Positions 5,856-15,844 of a DNA stretch of 37,835 nucleotides are shown here, piece after piece. This DNA comes from Archaeoglobaceae archaeon. GTDB taxonomy: Archaea; Halobacteriota; Archaeoglobi; Archaeoglobales; Archaeoglobaceae. How positions within the stretch are numbered: position 1 is the stretch's first letter; each line of letters begins with the position of its first letter. The position numbers were made by a program, and so were the translations under genes. The notes beneath the pieces were generated by a model. It did not search any database. It was not told where the DNA came from and worked only from the letters and a program-made list of their open reading frames with translations. The stretch spans positions 1 through 37,835 of the forward strand of contig JAMOPJ010000036.1 of the NCBI GenBank assembly GCA_027064525.1, written 5' to 3'.

Positions 5856-7757
5856 TCAAAAATCAATCAAATCCCTAACTTCAACGATCGGTGGAGGCTC
5901 CCTCTTGTGTCTACTCTTTTCTACCATCTCGATTACCCTTTTTACCTCATCCTCGTTTACATCGAATCTCTTTGGAATCTCCTCTGGCTTTATTCCCTTC
6001 TCCAAAGCCTTGAGAATCGTATCCAGCCTCTCATACGTTATGCCAAGCTCTCCCTCATCCGTCTGTCCTATCCATAGTCCAGCCGATGGTGCTTTCTTAA
6101 TTATCCTATCCGGCACACCCAAAAATTTAGCGAGTTCGAAGACTTCAGTCTTGTATAGATCACCTATCGGAAGAAAATCTACACCACCGTCCCCGTATTT
6201 GGTGTTTCCACAGAACGTGAACCTTCCGTTTCTCTCTACGAGTAGGTTGTGATGTGGCGGAATGTCTGGGCACCACACGATCCCTTTATAGTAGACCTTC
6301 GAAACGCTCGAAGGATATATAGACATCGTTCTTATGTTCTTGGCTATTGTGATGAGATAGGAGGGCTTGCTCCTTATGATCTTGCCCTTATACATTGTCT
6401 CCTTAGCACCTTTCAGTGAAATCGTAGCGTGCATACCCAACTTGGCACAGAGCTCGACTATATCGAGTGCGAGTCTATGAGAGATAGTCTGATAGTTCTG
6501 ATAACCCCATCCGTCGCTATCCATCAACCCTCTGTATAACCAGATCAACTTCTTGGAGGGTAATTTGAGTACCCATCTCGGTATTCTCTTCTCCTCCGCC
6601 CTCGAACCGCACTGTTTGAATATCTCGTACAAAGCTCTCGAATTTACTCTAACGAAGTGTCTGTATGCTCTATATTTGATATCAAGTTCTTCTAAGGTGT
6701 TTATCAAATTCTCCCTCGCCTTATCGTGCTTCGGAATCGCGAAACATACGGTATGAGCCTTATACGTGACGGGGATCTTACCGTCCCCCATCGAAACGAA
6801 CCTTTCTCTTTCATCTCTCATCATCTCTCTTCCACTTTCTGTTTTCTTGAAGGTCCTGACTTCGTAGGTCGTACATGTTCCATCTCCTATGTAGAGACCC
6901 ATCAGATATAGGAAAGGTTCGATGGATATGTTCTCCGGAATCGTGCTCGCGTTGTGATATAGATCGAAGAACTGCGAAACTTCAAAGCAGTTAACATCGT
7001 GGTAACCGTTCCAAGGAGAAGGGATGGGTAGGCTGAACTTCCTCTCCAAAAACTCCTCTGCCCGAACAAACTTCAACTTACCGCTCCTATTAAGGACAAG
7101 CATTCTATGGTTGGGAGTTACGAGGAGATCAGTTCTCCTTCCTCTTATATGTATCATCTCACCCTCGTAATCGAACGTGTAGACCGCTTTGACCGGCACC
7201 TCCTCCACCGCTCCCGTTTTCATGTTGAGAGAAAATACCATGTCCCCGGGCTTGAGCTCCTCGTACGTCTTCAAACCTTCCGTCGTCAGCACCCTCGTCT
7301 TCTCATCGTAGCAGAAGTATCCAGTCATAAGTTCAGTTTTGTTCCCTGTTCCAGCTACAAGCTTTCTAAGATTGTTTGCAAAGTAATAGTTGATGATCAT
7401 CCTGATTCGGGGCTTTAGATTAGCTACAGCTATCTTACTTCCCTCCCCGAGCTCGTTCAGAAAAACATCAACCATTGGATTTATCTCTACGAACTTGTAG
7501 TCGATCTCCAATATCTCGCAGATCTTAAGCGCATCCTCTATATCCTCCTCCCTCGTAACCCCTCTTTCGGGCATTATTATTCCCAAGACCCTGTCCTTGC
7601 CCAAGGCTTTGACACAGAGGAATGCAGTTGTGGAGCTGTCAACCCCTCCGCTCAATCCAACGACTACACCTTCAGCGTTTGCGTTTTCAACGACTTTCCT
7701 TATGAAATCCGTTATCCTCTCCACAACCGCATTCCAGTCAGTCAGCCTCTTCACCAC
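5856..7757 (-). CDS. nadE: NH3-dependent NAD+ synthase precursor containing an intein
   Basis: The product amidates nicotinate adenine dinucleotide to NAD+ using ATP and ammonia; no glutaminase domain is present. The N-extein (residues 1-148) has the ATP-pyrophosphatase P-loop GLSGGVDSS near residue 34 and ends in [13 protein letters not shown]. The C-extein (residues 519-633) starts [20 protein letters not shown]. Joined, GYF-TKYGDGG restores the family's uninterrupted motif and gives a 263-aa enzyme, the usual archaeal length. Residues 149-518 are an intein (separate entry). The start is one of two adjacent GTG codons (7757 or 7754) and overlaps the end of argF by 20 bp, so the two genes are co-transcribed. 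Confidence 0.95.
6204..7313 (-). mobile_element. intein with LAGLIDADG homing endonuclease inside nadE
   Basis: A 370-residue in-frame insertion. It begins with Cys ([13 protein letters not shown], splicing block A), has block B with the TxxH motif (LLVTPNHRM), two LAGLIDADG-type motifs ([12 protein letters not shown] near intein residue 140 and [12 protein letters not shown] near 265, each with the acidic residue expected for catalysis), and block [22 protein letters not shown] ending in Asn. The next host residue is Thr, a valid splicing nucleophile. The penultimate residue is Gly rather than the common His, a variant found in other archaeal inteins. Both splicing and endonuclease residues look intact, so it is probably active in splicing and may still be mobile. 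Confidence 0.95.
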
Positions 7758-8697: not shown

Positions 8698-9708
8698 TTA
8701 GCCGTAACGACTTCTGAGAAGGTATACGAAGAACGGTGCCCCGCAGAGCATCGTAATAATTCCTACCGGAACGGAATCGTTCATAAACGTTCTGGCGAAG
8801 GTGTCTGTCCAGACCAAAAATATCCCTCCAAACAGCGCCGATGCTGGAATAAGAATTCTGTGATCCGCTCCAACGACCATTCGAATCATATGGGGAACCA
8901 TGAGTCCGACGAAACCTATCACACCAACGAATGCCGTGCAAACTGCTGTTATTAGCGACGAGATCGCAAGTAGAATCTTTCTTACGGTTGCAACGTCTAT
9001 GCCGAGGTGGTGGGCTGTTTCCTCTCCGAACGTCATGGCGTTTAGATCTCTTGCAAATATCCAGATCGACGCAACTCCCGCAGCGACTGGAATTAAGCAG
9101 ACCTTCACGTCCAACCATTCGACGTTTCCCAAAAACCCTACGAGCCACGTTAGGATTAGATGTGCCTTGTTGAATCGAATTAGTATCAGCCACTCCAACG
9201 CATACAAGAAGAAATTTACGGCTATTCCAGACAAGAGAAGCGATTCCGTTGTTATTCTTCCCCTTACCTTCGCAAGACTGTAAACCGCAAAGACCGCGAG
9301 TAGAGAAGCTAAGAACGCAGAGATCGATATGGAATAGACGTTGAAAAATAATAAAACTCCCAAAAGGGCTCCAACAGCCGCTCCTGCAGAGATCCCCAAA
9401 ACGAACGGCTCTGCTAATGGATTTCTAAATATCGCCTGCATTACTACGCCTGCAGCAGAAAGAGCCATTCCGGTTAGGAATGCCATTAGAACCCTCGGTA
9501 TTCTGAGATCGAGAACTATTTTCTCATTTAAATCGAGCCGTTTTCCCATAATTGCGTCCGTTATTGCGTTAGCTATAAGTTTCGGCGGTATTGGAACTGA
9601 ACCCAGCGTTGGAGAGATTAAGAGCGTTATTAGAGCTAAGATCGAGAGCAGTAGAATTATCCTCAAATAGCTCCGGGTGTATGAATCTGGCAAAATCTTC
9701 GAGCGCAT
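8698..9708 (-). CDS. btuC: BtuC-like (FecCD family) ABC transporter permease
   Basis: Membrane channel subunit of a vitamin B12 or iron-chelate importer. Family motifs: TLGSVPIPP after the first membrane segment, DLRIPRVLMAFLTGMALSAA, MQAIFRNPLAEPFVLGISAG, and VGFVGLMVPHMIRMVVGADH before the last segments. About ten hydrophobic segments are visible in 336 aa. The ATG at 9708 lies 140 bp inside the upstream gene. A TTG at 9666, five bases after GGAG, is an attractive alternative that still keeps the first membrane segment. The neighbouring BtuF-like and DUF4430 proteins point to corrinoids. No ATPase gene follows. Confidence 0.9.
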   Translation of the reverse strand: MRSKILPDSYTRSYLRIILLLSILALITLLISPTLGSVPIPPKLIANAITDAIMGKRLDLNEKIVLDLRIPRVLMAFLTGMALSAAGVVMQAIFRNPLAEPFVLGISAGAAVGALLGVLLFFNVYSISISAFLASLLAVFAVYSLAKVRGRITTESLLLSGIAVNFFLYALEWLILIRFNKAHLILTWLVGFLGNVEWLDVKVCLIPVAAGVASIWIFARDLNAMTFGEETAHHLGIDVATVRKILLAISSLITAVCTAFVGVIGFVGLMVPHMIRMVVGADHRILIPASALFGGIFLVWTDTFARTFMNDSVPVGIITMLCGAPFFVYLLRSRYG

Positions 9709-10711
9709 AGACCAACCTGTATGAGGGTCTTGAAACTATATCCGCATCCACAACATAAACCCTTCCATTCTTCACGGCACTCAGGTTCGAAAGCACTGGG
9801 TCGTGGGTTAGCCATTCGTATAGGATATCCCTACCTTTAGGACTCATTCCGTTTCCGCTGTTCACTATTATGACGTCTGGATTTAGCCTGAGTAGCTCTT
9901 CTTTGCTTATAACCGTCCAACCTCGCTTGTTCACTGCATTGGTTCCTCCAGCAAGCCTGATGAGCTCATCGACGAATGTCTCCCTTCCACTCACCCAGAT
10001 CGGATCGTTCCAGAGTATGTGAATTACCTTCGGCCTATCTCTTGCTCGCTTTACGATCTTTTCGATGTTAGCGATTTTATCCTCCATCCACCCGATCAGC
10101 TTCGTAGCGCTTCTCTTAGCCCCAGTTACAACACCCAAGATCCATATGTCTCTCATGACTTGGCTGAGGTTCTTCGGATTGAAGCATATGACGGGAATCC
10201 CAAACTTCTTTATCGCTTCTATGTTTCCCAACCCATTGCCGTAAGCTCCCACGACCAGATCGGGTTTTAGGGCGATTACTTTCTCGACGTTTATCGTCGA
10301 AAACCCTCCGATCGATACGATCTTACCCTTCTCTTTCAGCTTAACAACTTCCGGTGGATAATCGCAGTAGTCGGTAACCCCAACCACCCTACTGCCCACA
10401 CCCAAAGCGAACAGGATTTCAGTGTTCGAAGGAGCCAACGAAACTATTCGTTTCGGATACTTTTTAACGGCAACCTTAAAACCAAAGTCGTCTCTGACTA
10501 TTACTACATCCGACTTCTCCACTATTCCAGCGTTTAGGTATGTTGTGTTCACGAACTTCGATGCCCCGAACTCAGGCATGTAAACCGATCCATAGTGGGG
10601 ATGTGTCTGATTTGGTGTAGGCGTCGAAACAATCCGCTTAGCCAGATGATGTGGAGTGATGCATCCCAGCAAAAGAAATATTGTGAGCAGAATTAGGATC
10701 TTCCTCGCCAT
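9569..10711 (-). CDS. btuF: BtuF-like substrate-binding lipoprotein
   Basis: Periplasmic-binding-protein type lipoprotein (PF01497-like) that should hand the ligand to the BtuC-like permease. It has a signal peptide with lipobox LLLGC, about 75 residues of spacer, and the family opening KRIVSLAPSNTEILFALGVG followed by VGVTDYCDYPPEV, which is typical of cobalamin-binding members. The core ends about residue 350 (RFIHPELFE). The last 30 residues, rich in Ser, Asn and Ala, have no match to the family and are encoded in the overlap with the permease gene, so they are probably overprinted sequence. The start ATG has GGTGAGAAG upstream and overlaps the end of the preceding gene by 19 bp. Confidence 0.9.
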   Translation of the reverse strand: MARKILILLTIFLLLGCITPHHLAKRIVSTPTPNQTHPHYGSVYMPEFGASKFVNTTYLNAGIVEKSDVVIVRDDFGFKVAVKKYPKRIVSLAPSNTEILFALGVGSRVVGVTDYCDYPPEVVKLKEKGKIVSIGGFSTINVEKVIALKPDLVVGAYGNGLGNIEAIKKFGIPVICFNPKNLSQVMRDIWILGVVTGAKRSATKLIGWMEDKIANIEKIVKRARDRPKVIHILWNDPIWVSGRETFVDELIRLAGGTNAVNKRGWTVISKEELLRLNPDVIIVNSGNGMSPKGRDILYEWLTHDPVLSNLSAVKNGRVYVVDADIVSRPSYRLVYALEDFARFIHPELFEDNSTALDLSSNNALNLSNAGFSSNTAETYS

Positions 10712-12957
10712 CTTCTCACCGCCAAAGCTATTGCAATACCGATAGATCCAGCAATAGCTTTAAATCCGTAAATCCTGAATCCCGGTTTTGTTGTAGGTGT
10801 TCCGGAGGTTTGAACGGTTGGGATTGCAGTTGGAGCTGGGGATGTTTGCCCGATAGGCGTAGGCGTCGGAGTCGGAGTTGGCGTAGATGTCGGTGTGGAT
10901 GTTGGAGTGGGTGTAACGTTAAACGACTTCACAACTACGGGATGAGGCTTTCCGAGCAAAGCCATAATCGAATCGGCTGTTACCTTTATAGGTATCGAAG
11001 TGACGAACTTCGTATATTTGAAGTATCCCTCATCGCTCTGCAAACTTAGCAGGTGATCGACGACACTGATGCCGTTTTTCTTCCAATCCATCGGATTAAC
11101 GCAAGCGGAAACCAAAGCCTGAATTGTCCAAGCGTCGCTGTCGGCATTGCTTGAGCTGTTGCCGAAGTATCTCATTCCCCCATCCTCGCACTGTCCCTTC
11201 TTGAGATATTCCAAAGCTTTTACTATCACCGGGTCGTCTCTGCTAACCCCTCCGGCGATCAAAGCCTGAATCGCCGAAGCTGTATCGTCAAAATCGCTTT
11301 TTTCTCCAACTGCCCAAGCAAAACCTCCATCAGAATTCTGATGAGCCTTGAGCCATTCCACAGACTTGCTAACGTTCTCCCCGCAAGCCTTCAAAGCTAT
11401 TATTCCCCATATCGTGGTGTAGATGTAGTCTCCAATCTGTCCATCCGGTTTCATCCTCTCTTTCAGCTTGGCTACGAAGTTTATCCCGTTGAAGTCGTAT
11501 GGATTCTGGTTTAAGGCTATCAAAGCCAAGATCGTCCTTGCAAAATCGGAAGTCCCCATTCTATCAATCGCACTCTCGTTCAGATTCGCTTTGAAGTAGT
11601 CTAATGGGTCTTTTCCGTTTTTCGTCCAATTCAGAGGATTCCCACCCGCGCTTGCGATCGCCATCACGACCCAAGAAGTGTTCGCCAAGCTACCCCATCC
11701 GCCGTCACTCCTTTGCTGGTCTTTCAACCAGTTCAAAGCCCTCACGATTCTCTCATCGCTCGCATTTAAAGGGAAGTCCCTCCACTTGACCAATATTGCA
11801 AACAGGCTGAAGTTCGAGATGTTTGCGGTGAAAATGTAGTGGGTTTCATTTTCGGAATACTTTGTAGGAATGAACGTCCAGCTACCGTTATAGTGAGCCA
11901 AGAAAACATCTTTCGGAGAGGAGTTTAGCTCGATGAGCTTTTCCTTTGGTATCGCGAAGGCTATTGTTAAGTTAAAGCTTTCGTTCGATTCGATTCCGAA
12001 GCAGTCCAAAATATAAGAATGAATGTTGTTGAAGATCATTCCAGAAGGCTCTTCACTCTCAACCTTCAACGATACCGGTTTTGTAGTTGAAATCGTCAAG
12101 TTGAGTGGAATCTTCGTAACGTTCACTTCAACCGTTGCGGTTCCGTTTAAAGCGATTTCAACGACCTTTTCGGTTACGTTAACCTTGGGTTTGATTTTGG
12201 GCGTTGGTGTTGGAGTTGTTTCTCCGCCTCCACCTCCAGAAGTGGTTACCCAAGGCATCGAAGGGGCTATCGAAACGTCGAAGGACCAATCCGAATACGT
12301 TTTCAGAGTTATCTTATACGGAGAGGTTTCGGGAGTTTCGCTCATGTTCCTCGAGAAGAACCAGACGACGGTATCTCCGGCGTTCAAGTCGTATTGATCT
12401 GAAGAGACCATAGGAACTTCTCCGTTGACCTGATACATCCATCCAGAAGTCGTGCCAAGGGATTTCTCGCAGATACCTCCTATACAGCTAACGTATAGAC
12501 CGTATGACCATCTCTTAACCTTAACGCCAAAGTCTTTCTCTTGAGAAGCCTTTATAAGAATTCCCAAAGCCGTTCTCCAACCGATGGTGGCTTTGCTCCC
12601 GTCTTCGAGCGTTATCGTAGTCGTTCCGCTCGGTAAATAGTAGTCTCCAACCAATCCACCTCCCCCGCTTGGTGGTGTCGTCGATGACTGTTTTATTTTC
12701 AAAACACTCACGGCTCTTTCGTTGCCGGATATGGCTTCGATCTTGAGCGTTCCGGATACGTGTGGAGTGAAATAGGTTGTTGTATTTGCGTAAATCGGCG
12801 TTCCGTCGTTCATTCTCAAAATTATCAAAGCTGGTTTGTCCGTCGTGATCGTCAGTTTATGTCCAACGATGCGATCTCCTTGAATGTTTATCGTTAGGGC
12901 TTGAACTGCCTGTATCGCAAAAAATAACAAAATTAGAGCAACCAACTGCCTCCTCAT
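10693..12957 (-). CDS. surface-anchored DUF4430 / alpha-toroid protein, probable cobalamin binder
   Basis: 754 aa, exported and probably anchored. Order: signal peptide (1-20); Ig-like strand region; DUF4430 (about 105-205) with SGWMYQVNGEVPM and LNAGDTVVWFFS, the transcobalamin C-terminal domain type; PGF-pre-PGF-like beta domain (about 260-392); an alpha/alpha-toroid of the prenyltransferase/terpene-cyclase-like type (about 400-670) with QQRSDGGWG, QNSDGGFAW and EDGGMRYF repeats; a Thr/Pro stalk; PGFRIYGF, a membrane segment and an Arg-rich tail (PGF-CTERM). Animal intrinsic factor and transcobalamin consist of the same two folds. The DxDD and aromatic active sites of true cyclases are not evident. 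ATG 12957 overlaps the upstream stop (ATGA) and follows GAGGTG. Cobalamin binding is inferred. Confidence 0.85.
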   Translation of the reverse strand: MRRQLVALILLFFAIQAVQALTINIQGDRIVGHKLTITTDKPALIILRMNDGTPIYANTTTYFTPHVSGTLKIEAISGNERAVSVLKIKQSSTTPPSGGGGLVGDYYLPSGTTTITLEDGSKATIGWRTALGILIKASQEKDFGVKVKRWSYGLYVSCIGGICEKSLGTTSGWMYQVNGEVPMVSSDQYDLNAGDTVVWFFSRNMSETPETSPYKITLKTYSDWSFDVSIAPSMPWVTTSGGGGGETTPTPTPKIKPKVNVTEKVVEIALNGTATVEVNVTKIPLNLTISTTKPVSLKVESEEPSGMIFNNIHSYILDCFGIESNESFNLTIAFAIPKEKLIELNSSPKDVFLAHYNGSWTFIPTKYSENETHYIFTANISNFSLFAILVKWRDFPLNASDERIVRALNWLKDQQRSDGGWGSLANTSWVVMAIASAGGNPLNWTKNGKDPLDYFKANLNESAIDRMGTSDFARTILALIALNQNPYDFNGINFVAKLKERMKPDGQIGDYIYTTIWGIIALKACGENVSKSVEWLKAHQNSDGGFAWAVGEKSDFDDTASAIQALIAGGVSRDDPVIVKALEYLKKGQCEDGGMRYFGNSSSNADSDAWTIQALVSACVNPMDWKKNGISVVDHLLSLQSDEGYFKYTKFVTSIPIKVTADSIMALLGKPHPVVVKSFNVTPTPTSTPTSTPTPTPTPTPIGQTSPAPTAIPTVQTSGTPTTKPGFRIYGFKAIAGSIGIAIALAVRRWRGRS
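10696..10914 (-). other. Thr/Pro stalk and PGF-CTERM anchor of the toroid protein
   Basis: This codes for the last ~73 residues of the protein encoded at 10693-12957. About 43 residues are dominated by TPTPTSTP-type repeats, a likely O-glycosylated stalk crossing the S-layer. They are followed by KPGFRIYGF, a 15-18 residue hydrophobic segment and RRWRGRS. This tripartite signal is the PGF-CTERM type recognised by archaeosortase A in Euryarchaeota, implying cleavage and lipid attachment. Confidence 0.8.
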
Positions 12958-14855
12958 GATGACACCTCGCAATTCACAGCGCCGAACCAATCTATAAGAT
13001 TGCTCGGATATTCGCTAAGTCTGTAAATACCAGCGTAGAGCTTGTAAGTTCCTACGGTATTTCTCTGTGGAACATGCATGAGAACTGGAACCCTTAAACT
13101 TTGACCCTTGCTCAAATACACGGTTGAGATTCCTGCTATATAATCTCCTTGATCGTTTGTGCCACTAACAACTACGACATACCAGCCATTTTCAGCCGAA
13201 CTTACGTTTACCCATGCGGTAGCGTTTCCACCGAGTCTTGCAGAATTTACGGTCAAATTGGAAATTCCAACCGGCTTTACATGGACCTTGATTTTTAATA
13301 GAACCGAGCAGTTGCTTAGACTACTTCCGTCCCCATAGCAGTAGTATATCGTCTCGTTGTCGCTGAGATAGTAGAGGTTCGCCCCAACTTGTAGCATGGA
13401 AGTTTCGTTCCATATCGACCAGTAAATCCACATTCCGTTTACGTTTTGAGTTCCCAGACCCATTATCGAACTTATAAAGAAAGAGCCATATTGGCTATAC
13501 CAGCTGTCGTCGAGCGTTACATTGAACCATATTTCTGCTCCATCAGTTACATAATTCGACGCTTCGAGCAGCGCACCCAGTGCTGTGTCTTGCCTCACTT
13601 CATAGTTTCTCCCGCTGATCGTTATCGTTACGTTTATCGGTGAAAGAGTTACGTTGAAGTCCATCTCGCCAGAACTGTTAAAGCAATAGACGTATCCGCT
13701 ATCCGCGCCTATGTAGAGTTTGCCGTTCGCTATGAAGGGGGAGGACATTATGTTATACCATGCGTTCGTGGGAGGTATCAATCTGTAATGCCAAATCTCG
13801 TAACCGTAAAATGCATCGACAGCGTATAACGTTCCCTCACCCGTGTTCGTTGCAAAATAAACTACACCGTTCGATACGGCTGGAGAGGAATCAATCTTAC
13901 CGTTCGCCTCGAAAGTCCAAAGAACCGATAATTTTCCGCTTGAATTGAAGTCAAAACAATACAGCTTCCCATCCCTTGAACCGATGTATATTCTATTGTA
14001 GGCAACGGCCGGACTCGATATAGTTCCGTTCAAAGGATACCTGTCTTTCAGCGTTCCATTTAGGTATAAGATGTATAGATAATTCTTGGTTGCAAAGATC
14101 AGAAGGTCTTCACCGCTTATCCTCGCTACCGTTGGTGTGTCCGTTATCTGAGAATCTACGCTTCTGTTCCAAATTTCCGTCAAATTGGTGTCAACGCAAT
14201 AGATTCTGTTTTCCCCGCTGAAGTTGCCGGCGAAGAATATTCTACCATTGTATGCCGTGGGAGACGTGTAGGGATTTATTATACCACCAGTGGTAAACCT
14301 TTTCACGATTTGCCCGTCGAGCGTTATCTTCCAAAGGGTTCCGTTCGAGTGGGTCAAGACGTAGATGTAGCCCTCGTAAACAATTGGAGATGACGCGATT
14401 CCGTAATAAGATGGCTGTGAATCGAGCATTATACTCTTTACATCCTTGATCGTCAGATTGATTATATATAGGTAGCCGTAGTAATCCCATCCGCTCCCGC
14501 TGTAAACCATACCACCAACGACGACCTTATCGCCGTAAACGAAGGGTGTTGAAGCTCCGTATATGTCTGAATCGTTCCAGAGGATTTTACCAGTCTCAGC
14601 ATCGAGCACGTAGAATCCCGGTTGCCATTTCTCCCAGCCATACCAGTTCGTTACGAAAACCTTTCCGTTTACTATCACCGGCGTAGAACCAACCAATCCA
14701 CTGAGATACGTTTTCCACTCAAGCTTTGGAATTATCTTAGCGTTTGACGTGAAGTTTCCAGTATGCTGAATGTCCCCTTGAAAAGTGCAAGCGTTTATGG
14801 GAGTTGCCGACATTAAAGCCAGAGCGAGCACGACGATCAGCATAACCCTCCCCAC
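12954..14855 (-). CDS. secreted PQQ-like beta-propeller protein with DUF4430 domain
   Basis: 633 aa. A signal peptide (MLIVVLALALMSATPINA) is followed by repeated beta-propeller blades of the PQQ type, seen as VYFATNTGEGTLYAVDA, KLYIGADSGYVYCFN and similar units (to about residue 410). A DUF4430 transcobalamin-like domain follows (about 413-528, with MWIYWSIWNETSMLQVGANL) and then an Ig-like domain. No C-terminal anchor is seen. I chose GTG 14855 because GAGGTGG lies just upstream; the open frame to an ATG at 14951 would add 32 residues before the signal peptide and run into the divergent pyrD. It heads the corrinoid gene set and ends in an ATGA overlap with the next gene. Confidence 0.82.
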   Translation of the reverse strand: MGRVMLIVVLALALMSATPINACTFQGDIQHTGNFTSNAKIIPKLEWKTYLSGLVGSTPVIVNGKVFVTNWYGWEKWQPGFYVLDAETGKILWNDSDIYGASTPFVYGDKVVVGGMVYSGSGWDYYGYLYIINLTIKDVKSIMLDSQPSYYGIASSPIVYEGYIYVLTHSNGTLWKITLDGQIVKRFTTGGIINPYTSPTAYNGRIFFAGNFSGENRIYCVDTNLTEIWNRSVDSQITDTPTVARISGEDLLIFATKNYLYILYLNGTLKDRYPLNGTISSPAVAYNRIYIGSRDGKLYCFDFNSSGKLSVLWTFEANGKIDSSPAVSNGVVYFATNTGEGTLYAVDAFYGYEIWHYRLIPPTNAWYNIMSSPFIANGKLYIGADSGYVYCFNSSGEMDFNVTLSPINVTITISGRNYEVRQDTALGALLEASNYVTDGAEIWFNVTLDDSWYSQYGSFFISSIMGLGTQNVNGMWIYWSIWNETSMLQVGANLYYLSDNETIYYCYGDGSSLSNCSVLLKIKVHVKPVGISNLTVNSARLGGNATAWVNVSSAENGWYVVVVSGTNDQGDYIAGISTVYLSKGQSLRVPVLMHVPQRNTVGTYKLYAGIYRLSEYPSNLIDWFGAVNCEVSS

Positions 14856-14950
14856 TTGAACCACCTCATTTGACTTCAGATAAAAATATTTTGACTTAAT
14901 AATTTTTCTATTCGACAAAAGCTTAAAACAGCTTAAGTCTATCAGATCCA

Positions 14951-15844
14951 ATGGTTGGCGAAGTGGAAATTGAATTGGCCGGCTTGAAGCTCAAGAATCC
15001 ATTGATACTCGCAAGCGGGATTTTGGGAAGTTACGCTTCCTCTTTAAATAGAATTGCAAGGCATGCTGGTGCAGTTGTGGCGAAATCCGTCGGCTTAGAA
15101 GCGAGGGAGGGCTACAAAAATCCGTGCGTCATAAATTGGCGTTGCGGAATTTTGAATGCTGTCGGCTTGGCTTCTCCTTCTGCAAAGGATTTTGCCGAGG
15201 AGCTTTCCAATTTCAAAAAAGATTGCCCGCTCATCGTGAGCTTATACGGGTCGAGTGCTGAGGAGTTCGCTAAACTCGTCAATTACTTTCCTATGGCCGA
15301 TGCATTCGAACTGAATCTTAGCTGTCCTCATGCGGAAAAGTTGGGTTTGGAAATCGGAAGGGATCCAGATTTGGTTATAGAAATCATAAAGGCTGTAAAA
15401 GCGTCAACAGATAAACCTGTATTAGCCAAGCTCTCATTCCACATGGACATAGTTGAAATCGGTAAGGTTTGCGAAGAAGCCAAGGCTGACGGTGTAGTTG
15501 CCATAAACACGATAAGGGGAATGGCGATCGATGTAATTAGCAGGAAGCCGATTCTGAGCAACGTGAGCGGAGGGGTTAGCGGAGAGGCGATAAAGCCAAT
15601 AGCTTTGAAATGCGTTTGGGATCTCTTCGAAGAACTCAGCATTCCAATTATAGGTTGTGGAGGAATAACGAACTGGAAGGATGTCATAGAATTCATCTTA
15701 GCCGGTGCAACTGCAGTTCAAATAGGCTCCGCCTTATTTTACAGCAGGCACATATTCAAGAGCTTAGTTGAGAGCTTGAAGTCGTATTTGAGAATTCACG
15801 GCGAAGATCTGCAAGATATCATAGGACAAGCTCATAAGACCTAA
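14951..15844 (+). CDS. pyrD: dihydroorotate dehydrogenase, class 1B catalytic subunit
   Basis: This FMN enzyme oxidises dihydroorotate to orotate in pyrimidine synthesis. The N-terminus (LKLKNPLILASGILG) and NAVGLASPSAK fit the family. The catalytic base is Cys in ELNLSCPHAEKLGLEIGRD, which marks class 1 enzymes; the FMN phosphate loop is seen in IIGCGGITNWKDVIEFILAG. The length of 297 aa is typical of PyrDB, which normally works with the Fe-S subunit PyrK, not found in this window. It is divergent from the DUF4430 propeller gene; a TATA-like GCTTAAAA lies about 30 bp upstream. Confidence 0.93.
   Translation: MVGEVEIELAGLKLKNPLILASGILGSYASSLNRIARHAGAVVAKSVGLEAREGYKNPCVINWRCGILNAVGLASPSAKDFAEELSNFKKDCPLIVSLYGSSAEEFAKLVNYFPMADAFELNLSCPHAEKLGLEIGRDPDLVIEIIKAVKASTDKPVLAKLSFHMDIVEIGKVCEEAKADGVVAINTIRGMAIDVISRKPILSNVSGGVSGEAIKPIALKCVWDLFEELSIPIIGCGGITNWKDVIEFILAGATAVQIGSALFYSRHIFKSLVESLKSYLRIHGEDLQDIIGQAHKT

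Follow-up and report, generated by a model that had tools for sequence, protein, structure and literature searches.

A probable cell-surface system for corrinoid capture and import, built from transcobalamin-like domains, in Archaeoglobaceae

Prokaryotic relatives of the animal vitamin B12 carriers were described by Burroughs et al. 2007 (PMC1796856). These authors reported the SLBB (DUF4430) domain together with a toroid in both domain orders, fusions to propellers, paired paralogues within operons and a member in Archaeoglobus, and they put forward the idea of B12 scavenging. The transporters to which they linked these proteins were CbiO/CbiQ, not BtuFCD, in bacteria lacking B12 synthesis, and they were sceptical of such a role in archaea that make their own B12. 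Here we analyse a stretch of 37,835 nucleotides (the window), contig 36 (JAMOPJ010000036.1) of a 1.89 Mb Archaeoglobaceae genome (GCA_027064525.1). It carries genes for PQ, an exported propeller-SLBB protein, for DT, an exported SLBB-toroid protein, and for a BtuF-like lipoprotein and a BtuC-like permease. These four genes probably encode a machine for the capture of corrinoids (cobamides or cobinamide) at the cell surface and their import, for which we infer what ligand is bound, that it is handed over directly and which ATPase takes part.

With the proteins of PMC1796856 this locus and its relatives share exported SLBB and toroid domains in either order, propeller fusions and two SLBB paralogues per operon. 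They differ in their association with BtuFCD and CbiZ, in fusions of the toroid or the propeller to BtuF, and in archaeosortase-type anchors. The animal carriers intrinsic factor, transcobalamin and haptocorrin consist of the same two domain types, with the toroid N-terminal and the SLBB domain C-terminal, in soluble proteins taken up by receptors, whereas DT is anchored, has the reverse order and carries a β-sandwich between the two domains; no sequence match to the animal toroid was found at E ≤ 1. BtuG of Bacteroides (PMC6143338), a surface-exposed β-propeller that captures B12 and works with B12 transport genes, offers a functional analogy. It is, however, a seven-bladed outer-membrane lipoprotein serving BtuB, and is absent among the 50 listed fold matches of PQ. 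Archaeal salvage by BtuFCD and CbiZ (Woodson and Escalante-Semerena 2004, cited in PMC3541065) employs the same transporter family and the same salvage enzyme as the locus in relatives, but surface capture proteins do not belong to its description as far as it is given there. In mycobacteria the propeller Rv3035 is bound to FecB, a binding protein of the Peripla_BP_2 family (PDB 9p3f; PMC12802301), although this complex has a role in cell envelope synthesis and not in nutrient import.

An earlier sequence-only reading of the window had called such a system little described. This holds only in part: the domain, both orders, the propeller fusions and B12 scavenging are all in the 2007 paper, and the tie to BtuFCD is not. 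We found no description of the BtuFCD/CbiZ linkage or of toroid-BtuF fusions in the open literature, a search with few subscription journals covered and the 2007 supplement outside it; this linkage and the fusions are what is new here.

The four genes are transcribed from the minus strand in the order PQ, DT, BtuF-like, BtuC-like, with neighbours that overlap or abut. Open reading frames (ORFs), Pfam and NCBIfam matches agree on the set of two exported proteins with BtuF-like and BtuC-like proteins that the sequence-only reading had named (Table 1). Of 60 relatives searched, 25 have a clear DT orthologue, in nearly every case with PQ before and a BtuF-like gene after, and hence the arrangement is far beyond chance. 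Scanning named genomes turned up 31 loci, from Archaeoglobus, Geoglobus, other Archaeoglobaceae, Candidatus Mnemosynella, Methanosarcinales, a Methanocorpusculaceae metagenome-assembled genome (MAG), Bathyarchaeota and the bacterium Thermosyntropha. At 26 of the 31, DT is followed by, or fused to, a BtuF-like gene, the exceptions being L078, L093, L104, L105 and L106. Three layouts were seen, namely PQ-DT-BtuF-BtuC-argF-nadE in the window genus (L077, L079, L084, L085), BtuC-BtuD-CbiZ-PQ-DT-BtuF in many Archaeoglobaceae (L080, L086-L089, L091, L092, L094, L095) and CbiB-PQ-DT...BtuF-BtuC (L097). That the partners are kept through three arrangements of BtuC and a changed order is stronger evidence than a single inherited layout. 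The neighbouring genes in relatives belong to corrinoid salvage, with BtuCD and CbiZ at the locus and CbiB beside, and this supports the sequence-only reading.

The gene context points to corrinoids in particular. Ten relatives have a gene for CbiZ (adenosylcobinamide amidohydrolase; PF01955, E 1e-42 to 9e-46) at the locus, in most cases with BtuD on one side and PQ on the other; this is the enzyme of cobinamide salvage in archaea (literature reviewed in PMC3541065). In L046, PQ has CbiB/CobD as its neighbour (E 2.5e-83). The window genome carries CbiZ and CobS away from the window. When the PDB was searched with the SLBB profile the leading matches were transcobalamin-1 (E 3.8e-5), transcobalamin-2 (0.009) and intrinsic factor (0.15). 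The first of these is the human protein.

The importer proteins show a similar leaning. The BtuF-like protein carries an LLGC lipobox at its N terminus and has E. coli BtuF structures among its top PDB matches (1n2z, E 2e-21), far ahead of heme and siderophore binders. Against a haloarchaeal B12-permease model the window BtuC scores highest of the five FecCD permeases tested from the genome (302 bits, compared with 255, 225, 212 and 180) and level with the permease of a CbiZ-bearing operon (303), all permeases compared falling under the curated equivalog cutoffs. Because the BtuF-like and BtuC-like proteins lie below their NCBIfam equivalog cutoffs (102 of 234 and 302 of 461 bits), their assignment leans on context too. 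In a BtuC tree the window copy groups with its own genus and then with L097 and L046. BtuD is found in the operon of relatives and, in the window genome, beside paralogous importers elsewhere.

Further evidence came from a survey of the phylum that covered 393 genomes, of which 158 contain DUF4430 and in which 35 loci were read with profile models built from the family studied here. A single chain combines the toroid with a BtuF-like domain at 17 of the 35 loci and at L068, giving 18 (in four other families, f6, f16, f24 and f25, where f16 includes the Methanocorpusculaceae MAG of L103). BtuC and BtuD stand alongside the fusion at 15 of the 17, a propeller-SLBB gene lies near the fusion gene, and the fusion tails that were examined closely are PGF-like or hydrophobic-basic. 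At two f7 loci (L169, L170) it is the propeller that is fused to a BtuF-like domain, and at L171 a stand-alone SLBB gene follows CbiZ/BtuF-BtuC-BtuD. Single proteins pairing SLBB with toroid, SLBB with propeller, toroid with BtuF and propeller with BtuF are the pattern expected for parts of one complex.

The domain content of the two exported proteins largely matches the sequence-only reading, with a toroid besides DUF4430 in one of them, DUF4430 placed first, and a PQQ propeller (PQQ_2/BamB, 77.9 bits) in the partner. Its claim of DUF4430 in both proteins needs qualifying, as the DT domain is well matched and that of PQ falls below the curated cutoff (18.6 against 23.8 bits, PF14478). Nevertheless, 17 of the 26 PQ orthologues in the alignment have a DUF4430 match (best E 9e-30) and hence the second domain of PQ is real though divergent. 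Both proteins have signal peptides, as read from their sequences; PQ is without an anchor of its own. DT ends in the PGF motif (G731 and F732 do not vary across the 22 sequences aligned), transmembrane stretch and basic end of archaeosortase A substrates, and an archaeosortase A (ArtA) family gene is present in the same genome (TIGR04125, 259 bits), while the NCBIfam scan reported no match of the short PGF-CTERM model on DT. The predicted structure of PQ has a mean predicted local distance difference test score of 94.8 and a predicted template modelling score (pTM) of 0.90. Its best folds in Foldseek are the BamB, YxaL and tetrathionate hydrolase propellers, and it is also matched to the Rv3035 propeller in complex with the BtuF-family protein FecB.

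Collectively the BtuF link, BtuD and CbiZ in relatives, the fusions, the transcobalamin match and the B12-like BtuC make a capture-and-relay complex likely. We propose a model where DT would be anchored in the membrane through its archaeosortase-type C terminus and PQ exported, so that together they would display SLBB domains, toroid and propeller outside the single membrane. Scarce corrinoids would be captured there, most likely by the toroid and the SLBB domains as ligand-binding modules, and the propeller, by analogy with BtuG, may serve as a docking scaffold or a second binding face. The captured corrinoid would then pass to the BtuF-like lipoprotein and on to the BtuC permease, with import powered by a BtuD that is encoded elsewhere in the window genome and in the operon in relatives. 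Inside the cell, salvage by CbiZ and CbiB/CobS would rebuild the cell's own cobamide. The scheme of the sequence-only reading, in which a surface binder, a lipoprotein and a permease handle cobalamin-like compounds, is thus upheld by the corrinoid-salvage context in relatives, the toroid-BtuF fusions and a profile that retrieves transcobalamin.

A bolder version of this model, which we advance tentatively and rate as somewhat short of probable, is that propeller, SLBB, toroid and BtuF make up a single composite receptor for corrinoids on archaea with one membrane, its parts being reshuffled into different fusions in different lineages. A transcobalamin-type clamp would here pass its ligand directly into a BtuF-type cleft within the same complex or, in some families, the same polypeptide. 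The whole would be to prokaryotes what the intrinsic-factor system is to animals, and would be integrated with the importer.

Several observations weigh against corrinoid capture and import by these genes. The PQ-DT pair of Candidatus Mnemosynella (L078) has no BtuFC beside it, and the window's own copy of the operon contains neither BtuD nor CbiZ. The single best PDB match of the BtuF-like protein, 4m7o, is named iron-binding. SLBB proteins of family f5 lie near propellers and away from BtuFC, and therefore DUF4430 alone does not mean B12 import. The predicted structure of DT has good single domains (88.9) and leaves the placement of SLBB relative to toroid uncertain (pTM 0.64, with the β-sandwich between the two and a disordered linker at model residues 219-243). 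The Foldseek matches listed for DT are terpene cyclases, prenyltransferases and TED domains, and transcobalamin is absent among the 50 listed from the PDB, for which reason we make no structural claim of an intrinsic factor-like cleft. The DUF4430-toroid ligand cleft of the sequence-only reading is neither supported nor excluded by this model. Finally, the corrin pathway of the window organism is near-complete, such that a need for scavenging is not obvious, and among the relatives searched DT shows no clear anticorrelation with de novo synthesis or tracking of pathway loss, occurring both with and without the pathway.

The corrin genes CbiA, CbiT, CbiL, CbiF, CbiG, CbiH, CbiC, CbiX and CbiP of the window genome are clustered together on contig 8, where a cobalt transporter and a further BtuFCD are also encoded; some of these names were read from sequence and gene order, and the tetrapyrrole methylases were assigned to their common Pfam family only. 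CbiD was the only corrin-pathway gene not found in this genome. Its absence first suggested corrin auxotrophy, a reading rejected in view of the contig 8 cluster, and the organism is apparently able to make corrin. Genome G004 likewise has CbiC and no CbiD was found in it; CbiD may be divergent or replaced. In eight of the relatives that have DT, CbiC and CbiD are both missing (G002, G003, G011, G025, G034, G038, G039 and G043, the G003 genome being only 81 percent complete). Because of these eight, and because salvage based on CbiZ is described for archaea (PMC3541065), corrinoid salvage in a corrin producer is plausible, and in the relatives lacking CbiC and CbiD it may be obligatory.

Surface capture and import of a different large ligand, such as heme, a nickel-tetrapyrrole, siderophore-iron or an F420-type precursor, would account for the iron-binding annotation of 4m7o and for a genome that apparently makes its own corrin. 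It would also fit with transporter families (FecCD/Peripla_BP_2) that serve many ligands, and Burroughs et al. themselves suggested a distinct metabolite for archaea (PMC1796856). We nonetheless consider it unlikely, given CbiZ at the locus in ten genomes with CbiB beside, the stand-alone SLBB gene adjoining CbiZ/BtuFCD, the specific match of the SLBB domain to transcobalamin and the top score of the window BtuC on the haloarchaeal B12-permease model. It is very doubtful that DT and PQ have only a general surface or adhesion role, associated with the S-layer, and take no part in uptake by the B12 importer that their genes stand beside. PGF-CTERM and PGF-pre-PGF are common in archaeal surface proteins and propellers often serve as protein-contact scaffolds, but the toroid shares a single chain with BtuF at 18 loci, propeller-BtuF fusions exist, and the association outlasts rearrangement of BtuC, BtuD and CbiZ. 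That the toroid is an extracellular class II terpene cyclase-type enzyme rather than a binding module is highly improbable in spite of its listed structural matches (terpene cyclases and relatives) and of the SDxDDT motif (window 11281-11298, DT residues 554-559), invariant across Archaeoglobi toroids and aligned with the catalytic DxDD of drimenyl diphosphate synthase, as the third Asp is lost in the SLBB-linked Bathyarchaeota toroid of L106 (DVDN), a bacterial set linked to an energy-coupling factor transporter (Thermosyntropha) has a toroid with this motif too, and outside the cell the toroid forms one chain with a substrate-binding protein.

Table 1. Coordinates of the features described; positions are those of the window unless another contig or locus is named.
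Feature	Position	Strand	Basis or remark
PQ ORF	12954-14951	minus	probable start GTG 14855
PQ, exported; PQQ/BamB-type β-propeller, divergent SLBB (DUF4430), C-terminal β-sandwich	12957..14855	minus	Pfam PQQ_2, model, Foldseek, orthologues
SLBB/DUF4430 domain of PQ, divergent, outer limit approximate	13344..13634	minus	PF14478 18.6-21.8 bits, alignment
DT ORF	10693-12990	minus	ATG at 12957; 754 amino acids
DT, exported, membrane-anchored; N-terminal β-sandwich, SLBB (DUF4430), PGF-pre-PGF β-sandwich, toroid, Thr/Pro-rich stalk, PGF-CTERM-like anchor	10696..12957	minus	domain models, alignment, predicted structure
SLBB (DUF4430, transcobalamin C-terminal-like) of DT, conserved SGWMYxVN motif	12343..12639	minus	PF14478 52.6 bits, cutoff 23.8
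PGF-pre-PGF domain of DT	11791..12105	minus	TIGR04213 42.9 bits, cutoff 28
α/α toroid of DT, 12 helices, invariant SDxDDT	10942..11781	minus	SQHop_cyclase_C 56.2 bits, cutoff 26.1; model helices, alignment
PGF-CTERM-like C-terminal anchor of DT (PGF, hydrophobic stretch, basic end)	10696..10779	minus	conserved motif, archaeosortase gene
BtuF-like ORF	9569-10711	minus	380 amino acids
BtuF-like substrate-binding lipoprotein	9572..10711	minus	Peripla_BP_2 129 bits
BtuC-like ORF	8698-9708	minus	336 amino acids
BtuC-like permease, FecCD family	8701..9708	minus	FecCD 302 bits
Near-complete anaerobic corrin cluster	G000 contig 8, 1-9000 (L113, L074)		
Extra exported protein	L146 12718-13758; L148 5785-6855; L149 12744-13889; L152 13503-14651; L177 5141-6244		

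Other features of the window and of related loci were recorded alongside these. The btuF and btuC frames overlap by about 140 bases (window 9569-9708; less if btuC starts later), and both frames are conserved there across species of the genus. Downstream of BtuFC lie argF and then nadE (NAD synthetase, window 5856-7757), which is split by an intein with a LAGLIDADG motif and is 634 amino acids long in L077 compared with 262 in L079, L084 and L085, where it is probably intein-free. With argF and nadE as neighbours no BtuD adjoins the window BtuFC, and an Rfam search found no cobalamin riboswitch in the window. In-frame TGA/TAG codons in some DT orthologues were taken as alignment overrun past the normal stop, where the full-length ORFs end. 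The window genome (G000) has four more FecCD/Peripla_BP_2 importer sets, on contigs 8, 13, 20 and 41; that on contig 8 directly follows the corrin synthesis cluster and that on contig 41 has a double binding protein of 657 amino acids.

An extra exported protein of about 350-380 amino acids, weakly propeller-like in some cases, is regularly found beside the toroid-BtuF fusion. In Thermosyntropha lipolytica (L104, 2571-11566) the toroid and SLBB domains are separate proteins whose C-terminal regions, read from the sequence, resemble S-layer repeats, and their genes adjoin CbiQ/CbiO-type and S-component-like genes. An uncultured archaeon (L105, 8190-9977) and a member of the Bathyarchaeota (L106, 17-1291) have toroid then SLBB in one chain, which is the order of human intrinsic factor; no BtuFC was recognised on the short contigs of these two loci.

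Our findings give a genomic answer to the question raised in 2007 as to the purpose of transcobalamin-like proteins in archaea though many archaea make B12. They provide a testable model of how Archaeoglobi and their archaeal relatives, which need corrinoid enzymes for their carbon metabolism, would capture corrinoids at the surface. The toroid-BtuF fusions put binding and hand-over in one chain and so are directly testable, and the system is relevant to the question of how the B12 carriers of animals arose.

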